A stretch of DNA of 64,000 nt from Candidatus Hydrogenedentota bacterium (GTDB lineage Bacteria > Hydrogenedentota > Hydrogenedentia > Hydrogenedentales > CAILVY01): NCBI GenBank assembly GCA_029565395.1, contig JAKQOG010000178.1, positions 62,001 through 126,000 on the forward strand, given 5' to 3'. Positions 52,891-64,000 of this stretch are shown piece by piece. Below the pieces are notes generated by a model that was not told the origin of the DNA, made no database searches, and saw only the letters and a program-made list of their open reading frames with translations. A program made the translations under genes and the position numbers. Position 1 is the stretch's first letter. Each line of letters opens with the position of its first letter.

Positions 52891-53745
52891 ATGGGTGCAT
52901 ATGTAAAAATGGCGGCCACGCTGTTGTTGGTGTTCTTGCCCGTGTTCGGAATGTCATGTGGGCGCCCCCATCCGGAAATTACCGCCGGCACGTCGCTGGT
53001 TCAGGAATTGGCCAATGATCTGTTGCGGACAAAGGTTCCTGCGCGAACCCTGCTGCCGCCGGACATGTGCCCTGGGCATTACGATATGCGCCCTGGCGAC
53101 ATTGAGGCAGTTGCTCAGTGCCGGCTGTTGTTGATCCAGCCCTGGCAGAAGGGCATGCCGAATATCACGGGAGCCATAAAGGCCGCTGGCATATCGGAGG
53201 AGCGGGTGCGGGTGGTGCCCGTGGATGGAAACTGGATGGTTCCGGAAAAACGTGCGGAAGCGGCGCGCGCCATTGGGGCTATGCTTGCGGAAGAATTCCC
53301 CGATCAGAAAGACATTATTCTGGCGCGTGCGGAAGCGTTGGCGGCACAGACGCTTGCGGCAGGGACAGCGGTTCAGGGACGGCTGGCCTCAGTGCGGTCC
53401 TCCTCAATTTCTGTTCTTTGCAATGAACAACAGGCGCCCTTTGTTCAGTGGGCGGGGTTTCACGTGGTGAAAACCTTTGGCCGTCCGGAGGGTTTGAGCG
53501 TGGCGCTCGTGGAGGAGTTGACGCGCCTCGCGAAGGAAGACGGCGTGGCGCTCGTGATTGACAATATGCAGAGCGGAAGCACTAAAATGGGCGAAAGTCT
53601 GGCGCGTACAACAGCAACGGTGCACGTGCTTCTGTCCAATTTTCCCGGCTCGGAACCCGGCACGGAGAGATGGGAAGGCATGATGAATAAAAACGTGGAC
53701 ACGCTCCTGGCCGGGGTGGAAGCGTGGCGAAAAGCGCATGGGTGA
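52891..53745 (+). CDS. ZnuA-like metal-binding lipoprotein
   Basis: A 284-residue substrate-binding protein of a metal ABC importer. A lipobox follows the signal (LLLVFLPVFGMSC), so it is probably membrane-anchored. The pattern resembles ZnuA/MntC with GTSLVQELANDLL and HYDMRPGDIEAVAQC, and a C-terminal LARTTATVHVLLSNFPGSEP, but the usual His-rich loop is missing. It overlaps the ATPase gene by eight bases. The metal is most likely zinc or manganese; this is inferred. Confidence 0.75.
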   Translation: MGAYVKMAATLLLVFLPVFGMSCGRPHPEITAGTSLVQELANDLLRTKVPARTLLPPDMCPGHYDMRPGDIEAVAQCRLLLIQPWQKGMPNITGAIKAAGISEERVRVVPVDGNWMVPEKRAEAARAIGAMLAEEFPDQKDIILARAEALAAQTLAAGTAVQGRLASVRSSSISVLCNEQQAPFVQWAGFHVVKTFGRPEGLSVALVEELTRLAKEDGVALVIDNMQSGSTKMGESLARTTATVHVLLSNFPGSEPGTERWEGMMNKNVDTLLAGVEAWRKAHG

Positions 53746-54508
53746 ACCGTTGGTGGATATCCATGGGGCGTCGGTGGCGCGGCATGGCCCGCTCGTGCTG
53801 CGGGACATCACATTGCATGTTCACCGGGGCGAGTTCGTAGGGATAATTGGTCCTAACGGGGCGGGGAAAACCACCTTGCTCATGATGATCAATGCTCTGC
53901 TTGCACCCGCACACGGCCAGGTGGACATTCTTGGGGTACGGCTGCCGACATGGCGCGGCTACCGGATCCGCCGCCGCATTGGCTATGTCGCCCAGGTGGA
54001 AAGTGTCGATCCCCGGCTCCCCATGACGGTGAGAGAAACGGTGCAGCTTGGTGCGGCGGGGCGGCTTGGTTGGTTTCACCGGCTGGGAAGAGAAGAGGCG
54101 CGGAAGGCGGACGAGGCCCTGAACCAAACGGGGTTGACCCGGCTTGCCCAACGGCCTATCGGGCAACTATCGGGAGGAGAATACCAGCGCACGGCCATTG
54201 CGCGCGCTTTGGTGCAATCGCCGGAATTGTTTCTGTTTGACGAGCCCACGGCCTCGGTGGATCCGCGTGCGCAGCGGGATATTTTGCACATCATCCAGGA
54301 AATGCATCTGGATCGGGGCGCGACCGCCCTTTACGTCACGCACGATCTGCATACGCTGCCGGAACGCTGCACCCGCCTTGTGCTGATGAAGGAAGGGCGC
54401 GTCTGGCGGGACGGCCCGAAAGAAGAAATGCTCGCCCCGGCCTTGCTCCGGGAATTGTATGAACGTGCAGGAGGAGGGAGTTCCAATGGCGGACCGGGAG
54501 AGCCTTGA
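53738..54508 (+). CDS. ZnuC-like metal ABC importer ATPase
   Basis: A 256-residue ABC ATPase. Walker A is GPNGAGKTTL, the signature LSGGEYQR, Walker B LFLFDEPTASVD and the switch VTHDLHTL. It fits the ZnuC/MntB group. Its 3' end touches the permease gene (stop then ATG with no gap). It provides energy to the metal importer. Confidence 0.88.
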   Translation: MGEPLVDIHGASVARHGPLVLRDITLHVHRGEFVGIIGPNGAGKTTLLMMINALLAPAHGQVDILGVRLPTWRGYRIRRRIGYVAQVESVDPRLPMTVRETVQLGAAGRLGWFHRLGREEARKADEALNQTGLTRLAQRPIGQLSGGEYQRTAIARALVQSPELFLFDEPTASVDPRAQRDILHIIQEMHLDRGATALYVTHDLHTLPERCTRLVLMKEGRVWRDGPKEEMLAPALLRELYERAGGGSSNGGPGEP

Positions 54509-55309
54509 ATGATGCCACAGTATCTGATCAATGCAATTCTGGCGGGCCTCTTCGCGGGAGTGTCATGCTCGCTGGCGGGGGCGTTTGTGGTTACGATGCA
54601 TTTATCGTTTCTGGGTGTGTGTATCGCGCATGCGGCGTTCGCGGGCGCATTGATGGGGGTGTGGCTCGGTTTTGATCCGCTCTTAGGCGCATTATTCTTC
54701 AGCTTGGGCGCTTCGGCACTGGTGGGTCCGCTGGCGGATCGAGGCGAGTTAAGCCCCGACGCCTCGATAGGCATTGTGTTTTCGTTTATGATTGGTTTGG
54801 CCTTTTTATTCCTGGGTTTGACGCCCGGCTCCCGCACCGAAGCGCTCTCGCTGTTTTGGGGAAGCATTCTGACAATCTCCCCACAGGATTTGCTCTTTCT
54901 GGGCATGGTGGCGGTGGCGGTGACGCTGGGGATCCTTGTTTTCAATAAGGAAATTCATGCCACGGCCTGCCACCGGAATGTCGCGGCGGCCATAGGCATT
55001 CCCGCCACCCTCGTTTTCTATGCCATGCTCTTCGCCACCGGGGCAACCATTGCCGTGAGCCTGCGGAGCATCGGCGGCCTGCTTATTTACAGCCTGGTGG
55101 TAAATCCGGCGGCCTCCGCATTGCAGTTGACATACCGATTCAACCTAATGCTCCTGTTATCCGTCCTTTTTGGCGTGGGTGCATGCTGGATCGGCCTCGC
55201 CGCCTCCTACTGCTGGGACCTTCCGGCAGGGGCCGCCATCGTTCTCAGTTCCTCCGTGCTTTTTGCCGTTTGCACCGTGATGTCCCCTAAACGGAGGGCT
55301 CAACAATGA
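54509..55309 (+). CDS. ZnuB-like metal ABC importer permease
   Basis: A 266-residue membrane protein of the ABC-3 family with about eight helices (SCSLAGAFVVTMHLSFLGVC; GFDPLLGALFFSLGASALVG). The GLLIYSLVVNPAASALQL loop is a family hallmark, with RSIGGLL just before. Its ATG follows the ATPase stop directly. Together the three genes form a complete importer. Confidence 0.88.
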   Translation: MMPQYLINAILAGLFAGVSCSLAGAFVVTMHLSFLGVCIAHAAFAGALMGVWLGFDPLLGALFFSLGASALVGPLADRGELSPDASIGIVFSFMIGLAFLFLGLTPGSRTEALSLFWGSILTISPQDLLFLGMVAVAVTLGILVFNKEIHATACHRNVAAAIGIPATLVFYAMLFATGATIAVSLRSIGGLLIYSLVVNPAASALQLTYRFNLMLLLSVLFGVGACWIGLAASYCWDLPAGAAIVLSSSVLFAVCTVMSPKRRAQQ

Positions 55310-55941
55310 CCGCTTCCGTTTTTAAGGACATGACACAAAAGATACGCACTTTTTTTGACAATCTCGCCGCAGAGTGGGACCAATCCACCTGTCCACAGCA
55401 TTCGGAACGCTTGAAAACCCTGGTTCACCGTTTGAATATCCCCCTACAGGCAAAAATTCTTGATGTGGGCAGCGGCACCGGCGTGCTGTTGCCGTTGTTG
55501 GCGCCCCCCGAACAATACCAACGCTGGGTGGTGGCTATCGATCTTGCTTTTCTAATGATGCGCGCGGCGCGGCGCCGCACGGATTGCGCCCAGAGGCGCG
55601 TTTTGTGCGTTCAAACCGATGTGCTCACGCCTCCTTTTCGTCCTGAAACCTTTGATTGGGTTATTTGCAACAGTGTGTTTCCCCACTTCCTCGATCAACA
55701 AGCCTGTTTGCATCAACTTGCCTGGGTATTGCGTCCGGGCGGGGCCTTTGTAGTGTGCCACACGCAAAGCCGCGAAGCCATTAATGAATTTCATCGCTCG
55801 AAAGGCGGACTTATCGGCGGACACGAGCTTCCGGATATGAAGGATATGGAATTACTGTTTCACCGTGCAGGGCTCCATGTCCAGATACATGAAAACACTC
55901 CGGAATATTATCTGATAACAGCGCGGAAACAAACCGGATAA
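55306..55941 (+). CDS. class I SAM-dependent methyltransferase
   Basis: A 211-residue methyltransferase. Motif I is ILDVGSGTGVLLPLL, motif post-I WVVAIDLAFLMMRA, motif II FDWVICNSVFPHFLDQ. Start overlaps the permease stop by four bases, so it is in the metal importer operon. Methyltransferases are sometimes co-transcribed with metal uptake for cofactor or metallophore work; no evidence here tells which. The last 12 residues are basic. Confidence 0.82.
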   Translation: MTASVFKDMTQKIRTFFDNLAAEWDQSTCPQHSERLKTLVHRLNIPLQAKILDVGSGTGVLLPLLAPPEQYQRWVVAIDLAFLMMRAARRRTDCAQRRVLCVQTDVLTPPFRPETFDWVICNSVFPHFLDQQACLHQLAWVLRPGGAFVVCHTQSREAINEFHRSKGGLIGGHELPDMKDMELLFHRAGLHVQIHENTPEYYLITARKQTG

Positions 55942-56127
55942 ACAATTTTCTAAAATATCCGGGAACGCGGTTTCAGGCAAATAGATTTCCTTTTTGGACT
56001 GCGCCAAGGGCTCACCCCGTACTGCCCTTCCCTCCCAACGGAACAACCTGACACCCGATCTACAGAAAATATCTTGTCAACATCGGAGGGTGATTTGCGT
56101 CATAATGGGCAAAGGAGTGTTAAGAAA

Positions 56128-59100
56128 ATGCATATACCTCTATGGACACGATCTGACGCGAAGGTGGTCCGCCGGGTGCTCGCTGGTCGGCGGAATGATT
56201 TTGGCGTGTTGGTGCGGCGGTATTTGCCCACAGTGCTGGCGGTGGCTCACGGCCATCTTGGAAATCGGGCGGATGCGGAGGATGTGGCGCAGGAAAGTTT
56301 CCTGGCGGCCTATCAGCGGCTGAATACCTTGCGGGAGCCGCATAAGTTTCCGTCGTGGTTGTTGGCCATCGCTCGGAACACGGCCGTAAGCTGGCAGCGG
56401 CATCAGAAAAACGAAGTGCCTTTGGATGAGGGGATTCTTTCATTGTCTTTACCGCAGGAGCAGCCTGCACTGGAGCGCCGTGAAATGCAGGAACTATTGC
56501 ATAAAACGTTGATGGAACTGGAGCCGGACACGCGGGAAATCCTCATGCTCCATTATTATGCCGGACATTCGTTGCGCGAGATTGCGGCCATGCAGGGCAT
56601 CACGCGCCTGGCGGCGGCGAAACGTCTGCAACGGGCGCGGGAATCATTGGGCGCAGCGTTTTTAAAACAAATTCCGGAAGCGCCTGCACGGCAAGTCTTA
56701 AAGAAACATGCGAAGAAGATTACGGCGGCGGCATTGGCGGCGGGCACGGTCTGGAAAGCCGCTCCGGCGCATGGCATGGTGGCGGGGCTGGTTATCGGCG
56801 CGGCGAAACTTACCGCGGGAGCGTCCATTACTCTTTTGCTGTTAGGCGGCGCTTTTATCAGTGCGCCGTCGCTGTTGGGCTGGGAGCCCAACTTCTCCGA
56901 GGCGGCTCAAGCAGAAGCCCAGCCCGCCGCGGCGCCGCTTGCCCTTCCTGAATCCTCTGCAACGGCTATTGAAGAACCGGTAGAAGCAGCCGTTCCGGAG
57001 GAAAGCGGACATTACTCAATCAGCAACGTGCTCGTGACACCTTTTGATCAAGTGATTGGCAATGCGCGTGTAGTGGCGGAACGTGTTACGTGGAAACCGG
57101 AAGAATTGCCGCCCGCCAAAACAGAGAAATGGGTCGTTGCGGCCAATGAAAACGGAATTTTTACCTTTGAGGATTTGCCCTCCGGCGCGTATTCCATCAC
57201 GGCGCAAACCAGACTTCTGGGCGGCGCGCACGATTTCCTGATCACAAAAGAGGGCAAGGTTCGCGGACCACGGAACGTTAAAATGTATCCGTTTTTGCGG
57301 TCCTATGGGGTGGTGCAGGATGGCACTGGGAATCCGGTTGCGGGAGCCGTGCTGTATCCTGTTTCTCATGAATTGTTCCCTGAACAGGAATTTGACCACG
57401 TGACCGTGGCGGGCATCCGGGCATGCACGGACGCCGAGGGCCGGTTCCGTTTCGAGGGGATTATCCCCGGTGCGTGGAAGATTTTTGTTGTTGCACCCGG
57501 CCATGTGCCCTTTTACACGGACTACATACCGTTTTACGGACTCCGCACGACAATTGTGATTGAGAAGCCAGGCAGCATGATACTCCGGGTAGCCGATACC
57601 TCCGGCAAGGTTATTGCGGGAGTAAAAGGTCAGATTGTTTCAGGAAAGAGTGTGTCCACCTATGATAATTATCAGCCGAAGCACCGGGTGCAACAATCGT
57701 TTGTTTCCGGGGAAGACGGGGTATTCCGCATCGATCCCATTGCGAGCGGCGAGTATGCATTTTCCATCGAAGATGCAATGTTAACTCTGGCAAATCTGAA
57801 TCAATCGGTGCGCGTGAAACCCGGAGCGGAGGCACAGGTTGACCTGATCGTCACGCAAGGGGCAATGATCCTTGGCCGGGTGATCAACAGTGCATCGGGG
57901 GAAGGAATAGCCGGGATCCCGGTACATGCCTATCTCCGTCAGAGGAACGTGCTGGTACAGCGCGAGGTACTAACTGGTCCTGACGGCGCCTATGCGCTTA
58001 CAGGGCTGCCAGGCGGAGAATATGAAGTGATGGCAAGGAAGGCGCCCAAAGGTGATTTCATGCATAAGCGGTTGACCGTCTTGGTAAAGGCGGGAGAAAC
58101 CGTTGATCATCAGGATTTCACTGTTGAGCCCCTGGCGGCACTTGCCGGACGGGTAGTCAATGCCGATGGATCACCCGCCGCGGCAGAAGTGACGCTCCGT
58201 GGGGGGCAGTACGCGGAAACGCAATCCGGTGTGGACGGCTCCTTTTCGTTTCCGGTGAAGCTGGAAGGCAGTGTGACGATAAGCGCTTCGACTAGTTCTA
58301 TGAAGAGCTTGCCGGTAAAGGTTGACCTGAGTGCGGAACAGACCCAGGAACTCGTGTTGGAACTTACAGTAGTTGCCAGCGGGGGGATCGAAGGCTTCGT
58401 TTATGAAGAGGACGGGAAACCCGCTTATGGAGTCATCGTCAGTGAACAGTACCTCAATTCAGGACAGCATTGGAGCGAATCATCCGAAGAGACCACACCG
58501 GACGGGCGGTTCCTGCTGACTGGGCTGTCTGCGGGGGAATACCAATTGCACGCCAGACGGCGCGGTGGGTACGGAGCATCGTATATACCGGTTACGGTGG
58601 CGGTGGCGGACGGCGCCATCACGCGGAATGTTGAAATTCGGCCTGAGCCTGCGGGTGATCTGAGTATCGAAGGCACTGTGTATTATCCAAGCGGGCTGCG
58701 GTGTCCGTTTGCGGTACTGTCATTGGGTGAAACACAAGGCACTGCCACGGGGCCGTTAGGCAATTTTACTTTCAACAATCTCCGGGAAGGGTCGTATACG
58801 GTCTTTGCGATGTCGCCAGGATACTCGCCCGCCATAGTGAGCGGCGTGGCCGCCGGCACGCGCGATCTGCAAGTTGTCCTTGAATCGTATTGCCAGTTGA
58901 GCGGCACGGTTCTTGATGCGGTGACCCGTCAACCCGTGCAGGAATTCCAGGTGGCGTACACGGGGATGATAAATGTAAGTTTCCAGCATGAAGTTCTGCG
59001 TAACAATGAAGGCAGCTTTTCCGATCCGAAGGGAAAGTTCCACTTCGATAAAGTTCCTGCCTTGCCCCTGGTGCTGCATGTCAGGGCGGCAGGCTATGCC

Positions 59101-59697
59101 CCATGGCAGCAAGCGCTTGACGATGCCGAAGGCGGAGAGGAAATCACCGTAGCGGTTGAATTAAGTCCTGCGGTGCGCGTCACGGGTACGGTCCGAAACG
59201 AAGCGGGCGAACCGGTCCCGTTCGCCAGGATCAGGGTGCCGGATACTCCCCAGCAACTCGCAACCGAGTCGGATACTGCCGGTAATTTCACCCTGGAGGA
59301 GTTGTCCGCCGGACGGGAAACAACGCTGATTGTTTCTTCCGACGCCTATGCCTCCGTGTGCGTTACGGTTATCCCCGGAAGCACCGGACCGCTTGATATC
59401 GTGATGCAGCAAGGAGGCTCCGTGCGGGTGCGCGCTCTTCTGAATGGCCGGCCGAGCCCGAAATTCTTCGTGAAGGTCGAGGGGGCGGATGCTTTGCCCA
59501 AGTTGGCGCTGGAACCGTCCGAAGAGGCCGTTATTCATGGCGTTGCGGCAGGAGACGTGGAAGTGACTGTTCAAGTGCAAAATGGCGACACTATTGCGCA
59601 ACAGACGGTAGCCGCAACAGTAATAAGGGGTCAAGAAACATGTGTTGACGTGGATATACAGACAAATACCGAGACGGTATCTGGGGGAGAATCCTGA
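56128..59697 (+). CDS. ECF sigma factor fused to a membrane anchor and carboxypeptidase-regulatory repeats
   Basis: A 1189-residue chimera. Residues ~15-90 are sigma region 2 (FGVLVRRYLPTVLAVAHGHL, NRADAEDVAQESFLAAYQRL) and ~130-185 region 4 (EPDTREILMLHYYAGHSLRE, MQGITRLAAAKRLQRARESL). Two hydrophobic helices near 205-260 (AAALAAGTVW; GASITLLLLGGAFISAPSLL) cross the membrane. The remaining ~900 residues are a run of beta-sandwich carboxypeptidase-regulatory-like domains, e.g. DGAYALTGLPGGEYEVMARK, TTPDGRFLLTGLSAGEYQLH and AGNFTLEELSAGRETTLIVS. AAGGAG marks the ATG at 56128 (the frame is open to a TTG at 56074). Confidence 0.85.
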   Translation: MHIPLWTRSDAKVVRRVLAGRRNDFGVLVRRYLPTVLAVAHGHLGNRADAEDVAQESFLAAYQRLNTLREPHKFPSWLLAIARNTAVSWQRHQKNEVPLDEGILSLSLPQEQPALERREMQELLHKTLMELEPDTREILMLHYYAGHSLREIAAMQGITRLAAAKRLQRARESLGAAFLKQIPEAPARQVLKKHAKKITAAALAAGTVWKAAPAHGMVAGLVIGAAKLTAGASITLLLLGGAFISAPSLLGWEPNFSEAAQAEAQPAAAPLALPESSATAIEEPVEAAVPEESGHYSISNVLVTPFDQVIGNARVVAERVTWKPEELPPAKTEKWVVAANENGIFTFEDLPSGAYSITAQTRLLGGAHDFLITKEGKVRGPRNVKMYPFLRSYGVVQDGTGNPVAGAVLYPVSHELFPEQEFDHVTVAGIRACTDAEGRFRFEGIIPGAWKIFVVAPGHVPFYTDYIPFYGLRTTIVIEKPGSMILRVADTSGKVIAGVKGQIVSGKSVSTYDNYQPKHRVQQSFVSGEDGVFRIDPIASGEYAFSIEDAMLTLANLNQSVRVKPGAEAQVDLIVTQGAMILGRVINSASGEGIAGIPVHAYLRQRNVLVQREVLTGPDGAYALTGLPGGEYEVMARKAPKGDFMHKRLTVLVKAGETVDHQDFTVEPLAALAGRVVNADGSPAAAEVTLRGGQYAETQSGVDGSFSFPVKLEGSVTISASTSSMKSLPVKVDLSAEQTQELVLELTVVASGGIEGFVYEEDGKPAYGVIVSEQYLNSGQHWSESSEETTPDGRFLLTGLSAGEYQLHARRRGGYGASYIPVTVAVADGAITRNVEIRPEPAGDLSIEGTVYYPSGLRCPFAVLSLGETQGTATGPLGNFTFNNLREGSYTVFAMSPGYSPAIVSGVAAGTRDLQVVLESYCQLSGTVLDAVTRQPVQEFQVAYTGMINVSFQHEVLRNNEGSFSDPKGKFHFDKVPALPLVLHVRAAGYAPWQQALDDAEGGEEITVAVELSPAVRVTGTVRNEAGEPVPFARIRVPDTPQQLATESDTAGNFTLEELSAGRETTLIVSSDAYASVCVTVIPGSTGPLDIVMQQGGSVRVRALLNGRPSPKFFVKVEGADALPKLALEPSEEAVIHGVAAGDVEVTVQVQNGDTIAQQTVAATVIRGQETCVDVDIQTNTETVSGGES

Positions 59698-59878: not shown

Positions 59879-61024
59879 ATGCCATATATTGACAGGCCCA
59901 GTGCGAGCAAGGCGTATCTTGCTACAGTGCTTGGTATTTTACTGCTTTGCCTGCTTCCTGCAGCGCTGATGCTGGCGGCGGGTCCAACGTGGATGATGTA
60001 TATCGTGTTGCCGCTGTATTCGCTGGTGATGCTGGCGCTTCTGCTCATGTTGATTCAGGCAGCCTTTATGACCGAATACCGCATCGAGGAGGACGCCGTC
60101 TACCTGCGGTGCGGCTGGCTGTGGAAAAAGCGCGTCCCCTTTAGCGAGATCCGGTCCGTGATGCCCGTCAAGAGAATTAGCCGCGTGCTCGGGTGGAATC
60201 CCGGCGCGCTGGGATACTGCAATCGTTACACCAACGGCCTGTTGTTGATCACAAAGACAGTGGCGATTTCCATAAGCCCGGGTGACGTGGAGGCGTTTCG
60301 CGCCGTGTTGCCTTCCTTCCCTGAGTCCAACGGGATCCCTTCGGAACTGATAAAGGAACCCCTGTGGACCAAACGGTTCATAGCGTTGGTGTTCGCCGCT
60401 CAGGGCATATTAATCATAGCGCTGGCGATCCCGATGATCACCGGGATAGTGCCGCCCAACAGCGGTTATGGCGTGCGCACCACGGCCACAATGTCCAACC
60501 CGGATATCTGGTATCCCGCAAACCGCTTCGGCGGAGGATGTCTCGCGGCTGCGGGCATAGTGACGCTGCTGGTGAGTTTGGTAATGCTGGCCTATGCCCG
60601 GAAACTGAATACATGGGTCGTTACGTTGATTTGCTTCGGTTCGTTTCTGCTGTGCATCTTCGGAACCTTGGCCGGTACGCTATACTATACCGATAGGCTG
60701 GAAAACGGCCCCTTTGTCACGGATCCCGACATGATCGGACATTGGACGTGTGTGGATTACGTCCCCACTGTAGACGCCTTCCAGCCCGGTAAAAAACTTG
60801 CTGAAGGCGATTTGTTCCTGAAAGAACTCACCTTCAAGGCGAACGGAACGACCTCCGGCGTGTGGCGGTGGTCCAAAGGGGTCTACTGGCATCCGGATGA
60901 ACTGCGCAAAGACCCTTACGAAATCCGGACCGTAAACGGAACCAAGTTCCTCTTCCTTAAATGGGTCAACGGCGACGTGCTCTATCGCGGCCAACCCGCC
61001 TATTATTACGTCTTCACCCAGTAG
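59879..61024 (+). CDS. membrane protein with bacterial PH domain and BlaR1-tail-like domain
   Basis: A 381-residue protein. Two N-terminal helices (VLGILLLCLLPAALMLAAG; a second ending LLLMLIQAA) lead to a PH-like domain (TEYRIEEDAVYLRCGWLWKK, FSEIRSVMPVKRISRVLGWN) and three more helices to about residue 280. The last ~100 residues (GHWTCVDYVPTVDAF, FLKELTFKANGTTSG, RTVNGTKFLFLKWVNGD, PAYYYVF) resemble the beta domain at the end of BlaR1-type proteins. AAGGAAAGGG precedes the ATG. A membrane-signal sensor is possible; function unknown. Confidence 0.65.
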   Translation: MPYIDRPSASKAYLATVLGILLLCLLPAALMLAAGPTWMMYIVLPLYSLVMLALLLMLIQAAFMTEYRIEEDAVYLRCGWLWKKRVPFSEIRSVMPVKRISRVLGWNPGALGYCNRYTNGLLLITKTVAISISPGDVEAFRAVLPSFPESNGIPSELIKEPLWTKRFIALVFAAQGILIIALAIPMITGIVPPNSGYGVRTTATMSNPDIWYPANRFGGGCLAAAGIVTLLVSLVMLAYARKLNTWVVTLICFGSFLLCIFGTLAGTLYYTDRLENGPFVTDPDMIGHWTCVDYVPTVDAFQPGKKLAEGDLFLKELTFKANGTTSGVWRWSKGVYWHPDELRKDPYEIRTVNGTKFLFLKWVNGDVLYRGQPAYYYVFTQ

Positions 61025-61105: not shown

Positions 61106-64000
61106 TTATTTTTTCCGATCTGCGAGAAGCAGTGCCATCCCCGAAAAAAGAGCAAGCAGCATATCGCCGTAAGACAACCCGGTGATCCCGTTGGGCGCGT
61201 TTTTGTCTCCGGCGCATCCACATGTTTTTTCTCCTTCTCCTTCGCCCTCTCCTTCTTCCTGGCCTTCGCCTTCCTCACCATTTTCCGGGTTCAAGGGCGT
61301 CACCACCGAGACCAATTGCCCCGCCAGTGCTGTTACATTCTGTCCATTGTCTTCGTAGTCCTGTGCCGTGGCCAGTAGGGCGTAGGTTCCGGCGGGAATC
61401 GCCGGGAAGGAATATATGCCCCCCACGTTTTCCGTAATCGGTCCGTAGGTTCCCGCCTGCACGGCGGCGTTCTCAATCGGCTCCCGTGTACGGGCGTCCC
61501 ACACGGTACAGAACAGGGAGGCCGCCAGGATGCCGCTTCCCGTGGCCAGGAACGGCTCGTAATCTCCAGGGCCATCGAGCCGCTCTGCAATTTCGTCAGG
61601 ATCATTGGTGCCCCAGTCATTTTGCTCCATTTTAACGGTTTCGCCGCGCTCATTGACCACGGCCGGCCCTTCAATGGTAATGGAAAACGTATTGCACCCC
61701 ACGGTGGGATCAGACTCATCGCCCAATGATCCGGAGGGAGCTTTTCCAGAGGCGCGCAGAATAATTGCGGGGCCGGCCAAGTCCTGGAACAGATTCCGGC
61801 GGATGGCGGGAATAGCCCCGGCAATATCAATACCCGCCGCAAGCGTGGAGAAGGTGCATTTTTCAATCACCGAATTGGCCGAATTGTTTCCCTCCACAAG
61901 AATGCCCGTTTCGGTGCGGCTTCCCCCGCCGGCAAATGTCACATGCGCCAGATGCATGGCCGCGGTGTTCAAGTCCAGCAGCACCGCAGTCCCTGTATCG
62001 GCGTTGATAGTGAGATGCTCGATGGTGCTGTTATTCGCGCCGGTGATCATTCCGGTTATTTGCGCCTCAGCGCCTTCCGCGCCCGCCAGCGAGATCCAGG
62101 GTTTAAGGGTCACATTCTCGGCATAATTTCCGGAGAACAACATGATTCTGACCCTGGCCATGGCCGTGGCGTTTGTCTGACGAAGGGCATGGCCGACCGT
62201 GGCCCAAGGCTTGGCTTGGGTGCCGTATCCAGGGGCATCCACACCGTCCGGTCCGACATAAAACAGGCCGCCAGAAGCCGGGCTGGCAGGATTTTCCGGG
62301 AGCGTCCCGCGCAGATATTCTTCAAGATTAGTCAGGCCGTCCTGGTCGAGATCCCCGTCCGCATCATTGGCCGTGGGATCAAGCCCATGATTTGCCTCAA
62401 AAGGATCGGGCATGCCGTCGCCGTCCGTGTCTATCAGGGAATCGCTGGTACAGAGGCAATCTTCAACGCACTCGGTAAGCCCGTCGCCATCATTATCTGT
62501 ATTCGGTTGTCCGGCGCATGCGGGCGTGCAGGTTTCGATGTCGCCGCAGGTTTCGCCTTCCCCCTCGGCGGTAATCACTATCGGGGCGCTGAATTCCGAG
62601 GTGTTGCCTTCGATGCTGGTAACCGTAGCGGTCAGGTTTTCACCGATATGGAAACCCAGGTTAATTGCGATCGAAAACGCGCCACCAGCGTCCGATGTCG
62701 AACTGCCAATCAGTGCACTGCCTTCATCTCCCATATCGGCGAAAAATTCCAGCATGGAATTGGGGACGGTGGCGCCGCGGACAGGATATAAACCGGTGAT
62801 GACAGGCGGGGTAATTCCCCCATTGGCCCCGTTGTCAAGCACAATTCCTTTCCACGTGTTTAGCTTGATCTCATTGCGCTGAATCCGGTTTCCTGCCGTG
62901 GTTGCCCCCGACACCCATACGCCATCTTCTCCGCTGTGCGCAATGACATTGCCAAATGTTTCAACCAAAGGACCGCCAATCCAGTTATTGGAAGCGCCTC
63001 CCATAATGAGCACACCCTTCCGGGTGTTAGGAATGCCAAACGCGCCGGAAGGATCATAACCGATAAGATTGCCTTGCACTTGGTTATTCGCGGTGCCGTC
63101 ATCCATGATCGAGATGCCGCACCCGTTGTTTCCGGAAATGGTGTTGCCCAATTCCGCCGCGCTGCCGCCGATGTAATTCGTATTGGCGCCCGACCGGATA
63201 GATATGCCATCCGATTGGTTGGGAAGAGCCGCCGTGCCTGCCGCGTTTGTGCCGATGTAATTGCCCATCACAAAGTTGTTAATGGTGCCGGTATCTTGAA
63301 TAAGCACTCCGACGCCGCAATTGCCGGAAATAACATTCCGCGAAATGTCATCGCCACTGCCAATGATGTTCTGAAACGCACCGGAACGGATCACAATGCC
63401 ATGCGCCTCGGCGGGCGGCGTTACATTGCAGGGGCCCGGTGCGTTCCCGGCGGCATTGGCGCCGATATAGTTTCCCAGGATCGAATTGCTGTGGGTGTCC
63501 GTCTGCTTTGGGGCGAGTTCTACATCTTCAATCAGGATGCCCGCATAGGTATTGCCTGAAATCACATTACGGGCGCCGGTAACGGTTCCGCCGATTAAAT
63601 TTGTGGAGGCGCCGCAACAGATGGTCACCCCCACCCGGTTGCCCAAGCCGGGCTCATTCGCCGCATTTGTCCCGATAAAACATCCTTCGACGGTGTTGTA
63701 GGCAGCTTGCGGGCCGGAAAGGAAGATGGCGGCGTCGGGACTATTAATAATAGTCAATCCCTGAATTACATTAAGTTGAGAGACGATGTTTATGCACGGT
63801 GTGGCAGCTCCCAGAGCCGAGCCGTCCAGGGTTATTTGTCCATCACCGCGAATAAAAATGCGTCCAGACATGTCCGCAAGTGCGGGCAATTGTCCGATCA
63901 AGGGTATAGTTCCGACAACATTACTTTGGAACAAGATATCTTCCGAGCCAGTGGTGTTATTGGCGGCGATCAGGGCTTCACGCAGGGAGATCGAGCCATC
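61106..64000 (-). CDS. surface beta-helix protein with calcium repeats and C-terminal anchor, N end beyond window
   Basis: The frame is still open at base 64000; the first visible residues DGSISLREALIAANN are the CSLREAL-type start of a parallel beta-helix domain, so only the N-terminal export signal is missing. About 964 residues are seen: beta-helix coils such as GARNVISGNTYAGILIED and NVISGNCGVGVLIQDTGTIN, then calcium-binding thrombospondin-3-type repeats (DTDGDGMPDPFEANHG), a second beta-helix, a carboxypeptidase-regulatory-like domain (GGIYSFPAIPAGTYALLATA), a Glu-Gly linker, CGCAGDKN, and a final helix with RKK, suggesting a PEP-CTERM-like sorting tail. Confidence 0.75.
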   Translation of the reverse strand, partial: DGSISLREALIAANNTTGSEDILFQSNVVGTIPLIGQLPALADMSGRIFIRGDGQITLDGSALGAATPCINIVSQLNVIQGLTIINSPDAAIFLSGPQAAYNTVEGCFIGTNAANEPGLGNRVGVTICCGASTNLIGGTVTGARNVISGNTYAGILIEDVELAPKQTDTHSNSILGNYIGANAAGNAPGPCNVTPPAEAHGIVIRSGAFQNIIGSGDDISRNVISGNCGVGVLIQDTGTINNFVMGNYIGTNAAGTAALPNQSDGISIRSGANTNYIGGSAAELGNTISGNNGCGISIMDDGTANNQVQGNLIGYDPSGAFGIPNTRKGVLIMGGASNNWIGGPLVETFGNVIAHSGEDGVWVSGATTAGNRIQRNEIKLNTWKGIVLDNGANGGITPPVITGLYPVRGATVPNSMLEFFADMGDEGSALIGSSTSDAGGAFSIAINLGFHIGENLTATVTSIEGNTSEFSAPIVITAEGEGETCGDIETCTPACAGQPNTDNDGDGLTECVEDCLCTSDSLIDTDGDGMPDPFEANHGLDPTANDADGDLDQDGLTNLEEYLRGTLPENPASPASGGLFYVGPDGVDAPGYGTQAKPWATVGHALRQTNATAMARVRIMLFSGNYAENVTLKPWISLAGAEGAEAQITGMITGANNSTIEHLTINADTGTAVLLDLNTAAMHLAHVTFAGGGSRTETGILVEGNNSANSVIEKCTFSTLAAGIDIAGAIPAIRRNLFQDLAGPAIILRASGKAPSGSLGDESDPTVGCNTFSITIEGPAVVNERGETVKMEQNDWGTNDPDEIAERLDGPGDYEPFLATGSGILAASLFCTVWDARTREPIENAAVQAGTYGPITENVGGIYSFPAIPAGTYALLATAQDYEDNGQNVTALAGQLVSVVTPLNPENGEEGEGQEEGEGEGEGEKTCGCAGDKNAPNGITGLSYGDMLLALFSGMALLLADRKK

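Follow-up and report, generated by a model that had tools for sequence, protein, structure and literature searches.

Within the window, the whole 64,000-nucleotide stretch of DNA that was analysed, one open reading frame joins an ECF sigma factor through a single predicted membrane span to a long array of CarboxypepD_reg (transthyretin-like) domains (Table 1). This union of sigma regions 2 and 4 with a carboxypeptidase-regulatory-like series, as read in the initial annotation, was borne out by Pfam, NCBIfam and AlphaFold/Foldseek. The sigma part has regions 2 and 4 and lacks regions 1 and 3 (only PF04542 and PF08281/PF04545 match), as expected of an ECF factor, and the protein scores over the cut-off of the NCBIfam sigma70-ECF model TIGR02937; with TIGR02989, the model of the Rhodopirellula/Verrucomicrobium sigma subfamily, it reaches 88.7 bits and stays below the curated cut-off of 124.55. 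An AlphaFold model of the sigma part, built with 41 sequences, has the ECF fold with pLDDT >90 across most of residues 10-180 and is of low confidence everywhere beyond residue 207. Searched against solved structures with Foldseek, this model retrieved AlgU, SigW, CnrH and E. coli sigmaE (E 1.5e-7 to 1e-5). The outer repeat region covers about 890 residues. Its fold rests on Pfam because the full-length AlphaFold model, made with three sequences, was a low-confidence all-beta structure (pLDDT 45) and was discarded.

Table 1 Features of the fusion gene and its upstream region (positions in the window)
Feature	Position	Strand	Evidence or remark
Putative ECF -35 element, TGTCAAC	56075..56081	+	Kept in orthologues as TGTCAAC, CGTCAAC, TGTCCAC
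Putative ECF -10 element, GCGTCA	56097..56102	+	Separated by 15 nt from the -35 element and by 25 nt from the ATG
Shine-Dalgarno sequence AAAGGAG for the ATG at 56128	56111..56117	+	Sequence
Fusion ORF, sigma - single TM - CarboxypepD_reg	56128..59697	+	1189 aa, ATG start, no internal stop
Sigma region 2 (residues 28-94)	56209..56409	+	Pfam PF04542 Sigma70_r2, 1.5e-16
Sigma region 4 (residues 122-174)	56491..56649	+	Pfam PF08281 Sigma70_r4_2, 2.3e-10
Juxtamembrane helix (residues 188-209), ending in KKITAAALAAGTVW with conserved Trp209	56689..56754	+	AF2 helix 188-206
Predicted single transmembrane helix (about residues 228-252)	56809..56883	+	Hydropathy; low AF2 confidence there
Acidic Pro/Ala-rich linker, predicted extracytoplasmic (residues 253-300)	56884..57027	+	K/R absent from the 60 residues that follow the hydropathy window
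CarboxypepD_reg (transthyretin-like) array, at least 7 domains	57067..59667	+	PF13620, 7 separately significant stretches, 6.7e-73

The proposal that this protein works with no separate anti-sigma factor agrees with what surrounds it, as no anti-sigma gene is adjacent and Pfam recognises no anti-sigma domain. A hidden anti-sigma domain was rejected, the 16 Pfam matches of the protein including none (no FecR, no zinc finger). Apart from the fusion itself no gene is common to the corresponding regions of its own genome (G000) and of the related genomes G001, G038 and G004. Upstream on the same strand lies a probable zinc/manganese uptake operon (52891-55309, +) of a ZnuA-like binding protein, an ABC ATPase and an ABC-3 permease, followed by a methyltransferase gene (55306-55941) just ahead of the fusion gene; neither the operon nor the methyltransferase occurs beside the fusion orthologues compared. 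The same applies to the gene directly 3' of the fusion gene on the same strand (59879-61024, +), which encodes an SdpI/YfhL-family membrane protein with a PH-like domain. Nearby, a gene on the other strand (61106-63934, -) encodes a large repeat protein whose N-terminal part is beta-helix-like; it also has a DxDxDG stretch, and its hydrophobic C-terminal tail (LSYGDMLLALFSGMALLLADRKK) resembles a surface-sorting signal.

Predicted membrane span and topology

Two membrane helices had originally been read between the sigma part and the repeats. This was not borne out, as only residues 228-252 are long enough to span a membrane; the first hydrophobic stretch (residues 198-209, ITAAALAAGTVW), preceded by KKHAKK and forming the hydrophobic end of the helix at 188-206, has about 12 residues, and the two-span reading was rejected on that ground. 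Two spans would also return the sensor to the cytoplasm. In several members of the family the loop between the two hydrophobic stretches is basic (for example KPEAPQEGLKTQLGRR), which argues against the first stretch as a span, although in many the loop carries no charge. The exact ends of the predicted span are uncertain because the best 21-residue hydropathy window starts at residue 218 and takes in Lys227. A span is present in 62 of 66 long-frame sigma ORFs of the order, with a median start at residue 231, and in 0 of 33 plain ECF controls; since these controls are short frames by selection, its near-fixed position is informative and its absence from the controls is not.

The distribution of basic residues about the span is asymmetric in the window protein, with 18 K+R per 100 residues before it and none over the following 60 residues, and four close relatives show a drop in the same direction. 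Across the family the mean is 11.5 per 100 before the span against 6.7 after, a direction seen in 45 of 62 members and moderate only. From this positive-inside pattern an N-in/C-out topology is predicted, and the pattern in the window protein and its orthologues supports the initial view that the sigma part is tethered at the membrane. The AlphaFold model of the sigma part resolved neither a membrane span nor a sigma-inhibiting contact.

Reading frame and lineage of the sigma fusions

The nearest named orthologue, from the Candidatus Hydrogenedentes MAG LaPlata_bin-1517 (CAILVY010000192.1), is 57% identical over residues 1-1186, which places the window in Hydrogenedentota. In G001, a genome of the same genus, the orthologue is 63% identical over the N-terminal 324 residues and has a frame of 1375 aa, and the same long frame is found in G038 (54% identity), G004 (48%) and G044. 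The initial annotation had named a frameshift near residues 200-260 in other strains as a sign against a single protein. None was found, four orthologues from other assemblies being in frame, and the one-protein design is supported by the intact ORF and by a frame kept in independent assemblies. A frameshift artefact or MAG chimera was rejected on the same fusion recurring in five assemblies. Between the genus-mates G038 and G044 dN/dS was 0.11 in the sigma part, 0.18 in the linker with the span, 0.35 in the acidic linker, 0.13 in the first repeats and 0.23-0.29 in the later repeats, and these low values in every segment indicate that the whole chain including the junction is under selection.

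We therefore consider it very improbable that internal initiation, cleavage or a frame error lets the gene yield two products, one a soluble sigma factor and the other an envelope protein. The frame kept in five assemblies and the purifying selection across the junction count against two products, as does the second, stronger hydrophobic segment at its near-fixed place. No in-frame start with a Shine-Dalgarno sequence occurs in codons 151-270 of four of the five genes (the window gene and those of G001, G038 and G044); in G004 two TTG codons in this interval pass a crude internal-start/Shine-Dalgarno test. What favours two products is the first hydrophobic stretch, which together with its upstream basic residues resembles a signal peptide in several paralogues, among them C126 (RKRVMALILFMPVAWDSPASA).

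The window's own genome (7.5 Mb in 290 contigs) encodes four further fusions, namely C95 (a 1410-aa frame of the same type), C45 (812 aa), C20 (989 aa) and the short C126. The outer repeats of C45 (L028:2742-5120, -) seem STN-like (secretin/TonB short N-terminal) and not CarboxypepD_reg. C126 (L032:4122-5030, -) is a minimal member of about 303-313 aa with sigma, hydrophobic segments and a short basic tail and without an outer domain.

An initial scan of the genome contigs with the single protein as query returned nothing. The family was listed with a profile (A6) of sigma region 4, the juxtamembrane segment and the span, with which the window protein scores 2.9e-40, having been in the alignment, and members outside the alignment score <1e-30. 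The count of similar fusions across PVC-type genomes, called for at the outset, proved large: A6 matches in frames of 300-1400 aa come from no fewer than 37 of the 68 Hydrogenedentota genomes, with at least about 17 each in G055 and G052, and the same arrangement was found in Planctomycetota and Verrucomicrobiota among 43 other genomes reached via named loci. At that stringency and with the span covered there were no matches in the sampled Acidobacteria, Firmicutes, Proteobacteria and Bacteroidota, the 43-genome sample being a by-product of the sigma search and not a balanced survey.

CarboxypepD_reg domains were recognised in 19 of 25 and 20 of 36 fusion members, STN in two and a kinase domain in two; some planctomycete members (L295, L296 and L301) carry CarboxypepD_reg too. 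We think that the kinase-domain pair is G033:C159 and G019:C26, since they lack the usual span and branch apart in the tree. The long sigma frames L188 and L199, which have no such span and group together on the tree, are probably the two kinase-domain members and would be a different kind of sigma fusion in the same genomes.

On a tree of sigma domains the fusion label can be explained by 2 changes, compared with 28 when labels are shuffled, the exception being C20, which joins through a long-branch pairing flagged by the program. The fusions thus appear to be essentially one dedicated sigma lineage, in which the window protein takes its place with a span about 55 residues after sigma region 4 and the conserved juxtamembrane segment. 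A literature search, which had the main ECF classification works outside its reach and so does not establish absence, returned no paper on sigma-CarboxypepD_reg fusions and none with Hydrogenedentes sigma factors as its topic.

Putative promoter of the fusion gene and predicted targets

The putative ECF promoter ahead of the fusion gene is conserved. Orthologues carry CGTCAAC-GCGTCA, TGTCAAC-GTGTCA and TGTCCAC-GCGTCT with unrelated or diverged spacers, the C95 paralogue carries TGTCCAT-GCATCT, and the -10 element ends 22-25 nt upstream of the start codon in the five orthologous genes (including the window gene) and the C95 paralogue. More widely, TGTCNNC occurs within 160 nt upstream of 33 of 67 fusion genes (shuffled mean 9.7, maximum 15) against 0 of 33 plain ECF genes, with a Fisher p-value of 5e-8 that is optimistic because the pattern was picked after viewing the upstream regions of both sets, and that relatedness inflates. 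About half of the fusion genes have no clear TGTCNNC site. The simpler TGTCNNC count was adopted because a position weight matrix from 7 sites separated held-out fusions weakly (10/42 at p<=0.05 vs 2/33 controls).

From the habit of ECF factors, and from a motif that is found in the lineage and absent before plain ECF genes, we infer that the sigma factor activates its own gene and that the fused sigma itself reads the site. The motif could instead be read by another sigma factor.

Of the target promoters that were to be predicted, that of the gene itself stood out, and the remaining hits in four genomes were near chance. The exact site of the window gene's type occurs a single time in the 7.5 Mb genome, ahead of the fusion gene, and in G000, G038 and G044 alike the only exact match and the only well-placed site is the fusion gene's own. 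Allowing up to 2 mismatches gave 8 hits in G000 (10 with the reversed pattern as control), 6 in G038 (5), 6 in G044 (3) and 13 in G001 (8). Relaxed regulon patterns stayed at about the level of the reversed control, the loosest being modestly above it (21 vs 7), and nearly all of their hits lay within coding frames or were badly placed. The best-looking possible second target is L256/L331 (G001:C121), with a promoter 50 nt before a gene for a 339-aa membrane protein that has an N-terminal membrane anchor and a Pro-rich stalk.

Near-control counts in four genomes and a solitary well-placed site in three would suit a sigma domain that serves mainly as an expression device, in a self-amplifying gene for an envelope protein that is itself the output, with no wider regulon. 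We regard this as quite unlikely; true targets may have weaker sites, and the L331 gene of G001 is a possible extra target.

Proposed signal transfer by a membrane-anchored sigma factor

In the usual account a signal is passed to an ECF sigma factor by a separate anti-sigma factor. The classical arrangement of RpoE with the membrane anti-sigma RseA likewise brings an envelope signal to an ECF factor, with two genes there and one here. We think that the window protein is probably a single-pass, membrane-anchored and self-activating ECF sigma factor with its own sensor, released by intramembrane proteolysis as in IutY. The sigma domain would lie in the cytoplasm, the helix at about residues 228-252 would cross the inner membrane and the transthyretin-like repeats would face the envelope. 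The sigma factor would recognise TGTCAAC-N15-GCGTC, with its own gene as the clearest target (positive autoregulation). At rest the tether, perhaps together with the juxtamembrane helix, would block productive binding of RNA polymerase. A change in or on the repeat array would then expose the stalk to a periplasmic protease, after which a site-2 (RseP-type, M50) protease would liberate the sigma domain as in IutY. Both inhibition at rest and proteolytic release are inferred. An M50 protease gene is present in the window's own genome and also in all 14 control genomes, and being universal it does not discriminate.

Whether or not cleavage occurs, the juxtamembrane segment is a conserved element of these proteins. 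Its length is fairly constant across the family (median 54 aa), Trp209 is invariant in an alignment of 5 relatives, and a hydrophobic-Trp motif is found in 31 of 61 fusions (shuffled mean 3.2, maximum 9). The best superpositions of the sigma model are with anti-sigma-bound ECF factors (CnrH-CnrY, TM 0.77; SigW-RsiW, 0.75). The sigma part may be silenced by tethering alone or by a juxtamembrane helix that serves as a short anti-sigma like CnrY, for which the match to the CnrY complex is suggestive only. The same observations favour a reading without cleavage, in which the sigma factor works from the membrane or changes conformation upon ligand binding to the envelope domain, with the juxtamembrane helix as a minimal built-in anti-sigma; the extensions of ECF41/42 are thought to act through conformational change (PMC8999054). 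However, compact sigma states are common in AF2 and we found no demonstrated case of transcription by a membrane-anchored sigma factor, and we consider this reading unlikely.

Release by proteolysis is the reading that we prefer. The fusion of a sigma factor to a membrane part is not an unprecedented design, being preceded by IutY, ECF48/52/53 and the planctomycete ECF-WD40 proteins. IutY of P. putida (ECF243) is a sigma-TM-periplasmic protein held inactive and freed experimentally by Prc and then RseP; the likeness consists in a sigma domain, a single TM and a periplasmic domain in one protein, whereas IutY is 374 aa long, its periplasmic part is an anti-sigma domain from the cell-surface-signalling family, and a receptor gene lies next to its own (PMC5411451). 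The window protein in contrast has about 890 aa of CarboxypepD_reg without a FecR-like anti-sigma domain and without a conserved neighbour. SCO4117 (ECF52) combines sigma, zinc finger, TM and carbohydrate-binding domain under a proteolysis model, and this group along with ECF48 and ECF53 resembles the window protein in its sigma, span(s), Pro-rich extracellular stretch and ligand-type domain, with proteolytic release proposed and autoregulation suggested (PMC5826349, PMC8999054). These groups are actinobacterial and have a zinc-finger anti-sigma between sigma and TM, to which the window protein has no match. Planctomycete ECF factors with a C-terminal extension (ECF57, WD40 type) likewise have a large extension, of WD40 there and CarboxypepD_reg here. 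ECF01-Gob is another planctomycete ECF type with a large C-terminal extension. Some ECF sigma factors of Tuwongella immobilis were recovered in Triton or SDS fractions (PMC8567305).

What is added here is a sigma lineage whose core is conserved while its outer domains vary, together with a predicted private promoter. A bolder and rather doubtful possibility is that a giant envelope protein carries, on the other side of the membrane, a sigma factor for its own promoter and practically no other. One molecule would then do the sensing, transfer, transcription and output, and this architecture would be lineage-wide in Hydrogenedentota, with a swappable outer domain on the conserved sigma-juxtamembrane-TM core. 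In this large lineage the single span sits at a near-fixed position, the outer domains vary and a promoter was predicted directly from sequence; the member studied here shows neither a recognisable anti-sigma domain nor a conserved partner gene. The silencing and release of a tethered sigma factor can thereby be put to a direct test with a single gene and its promoter.
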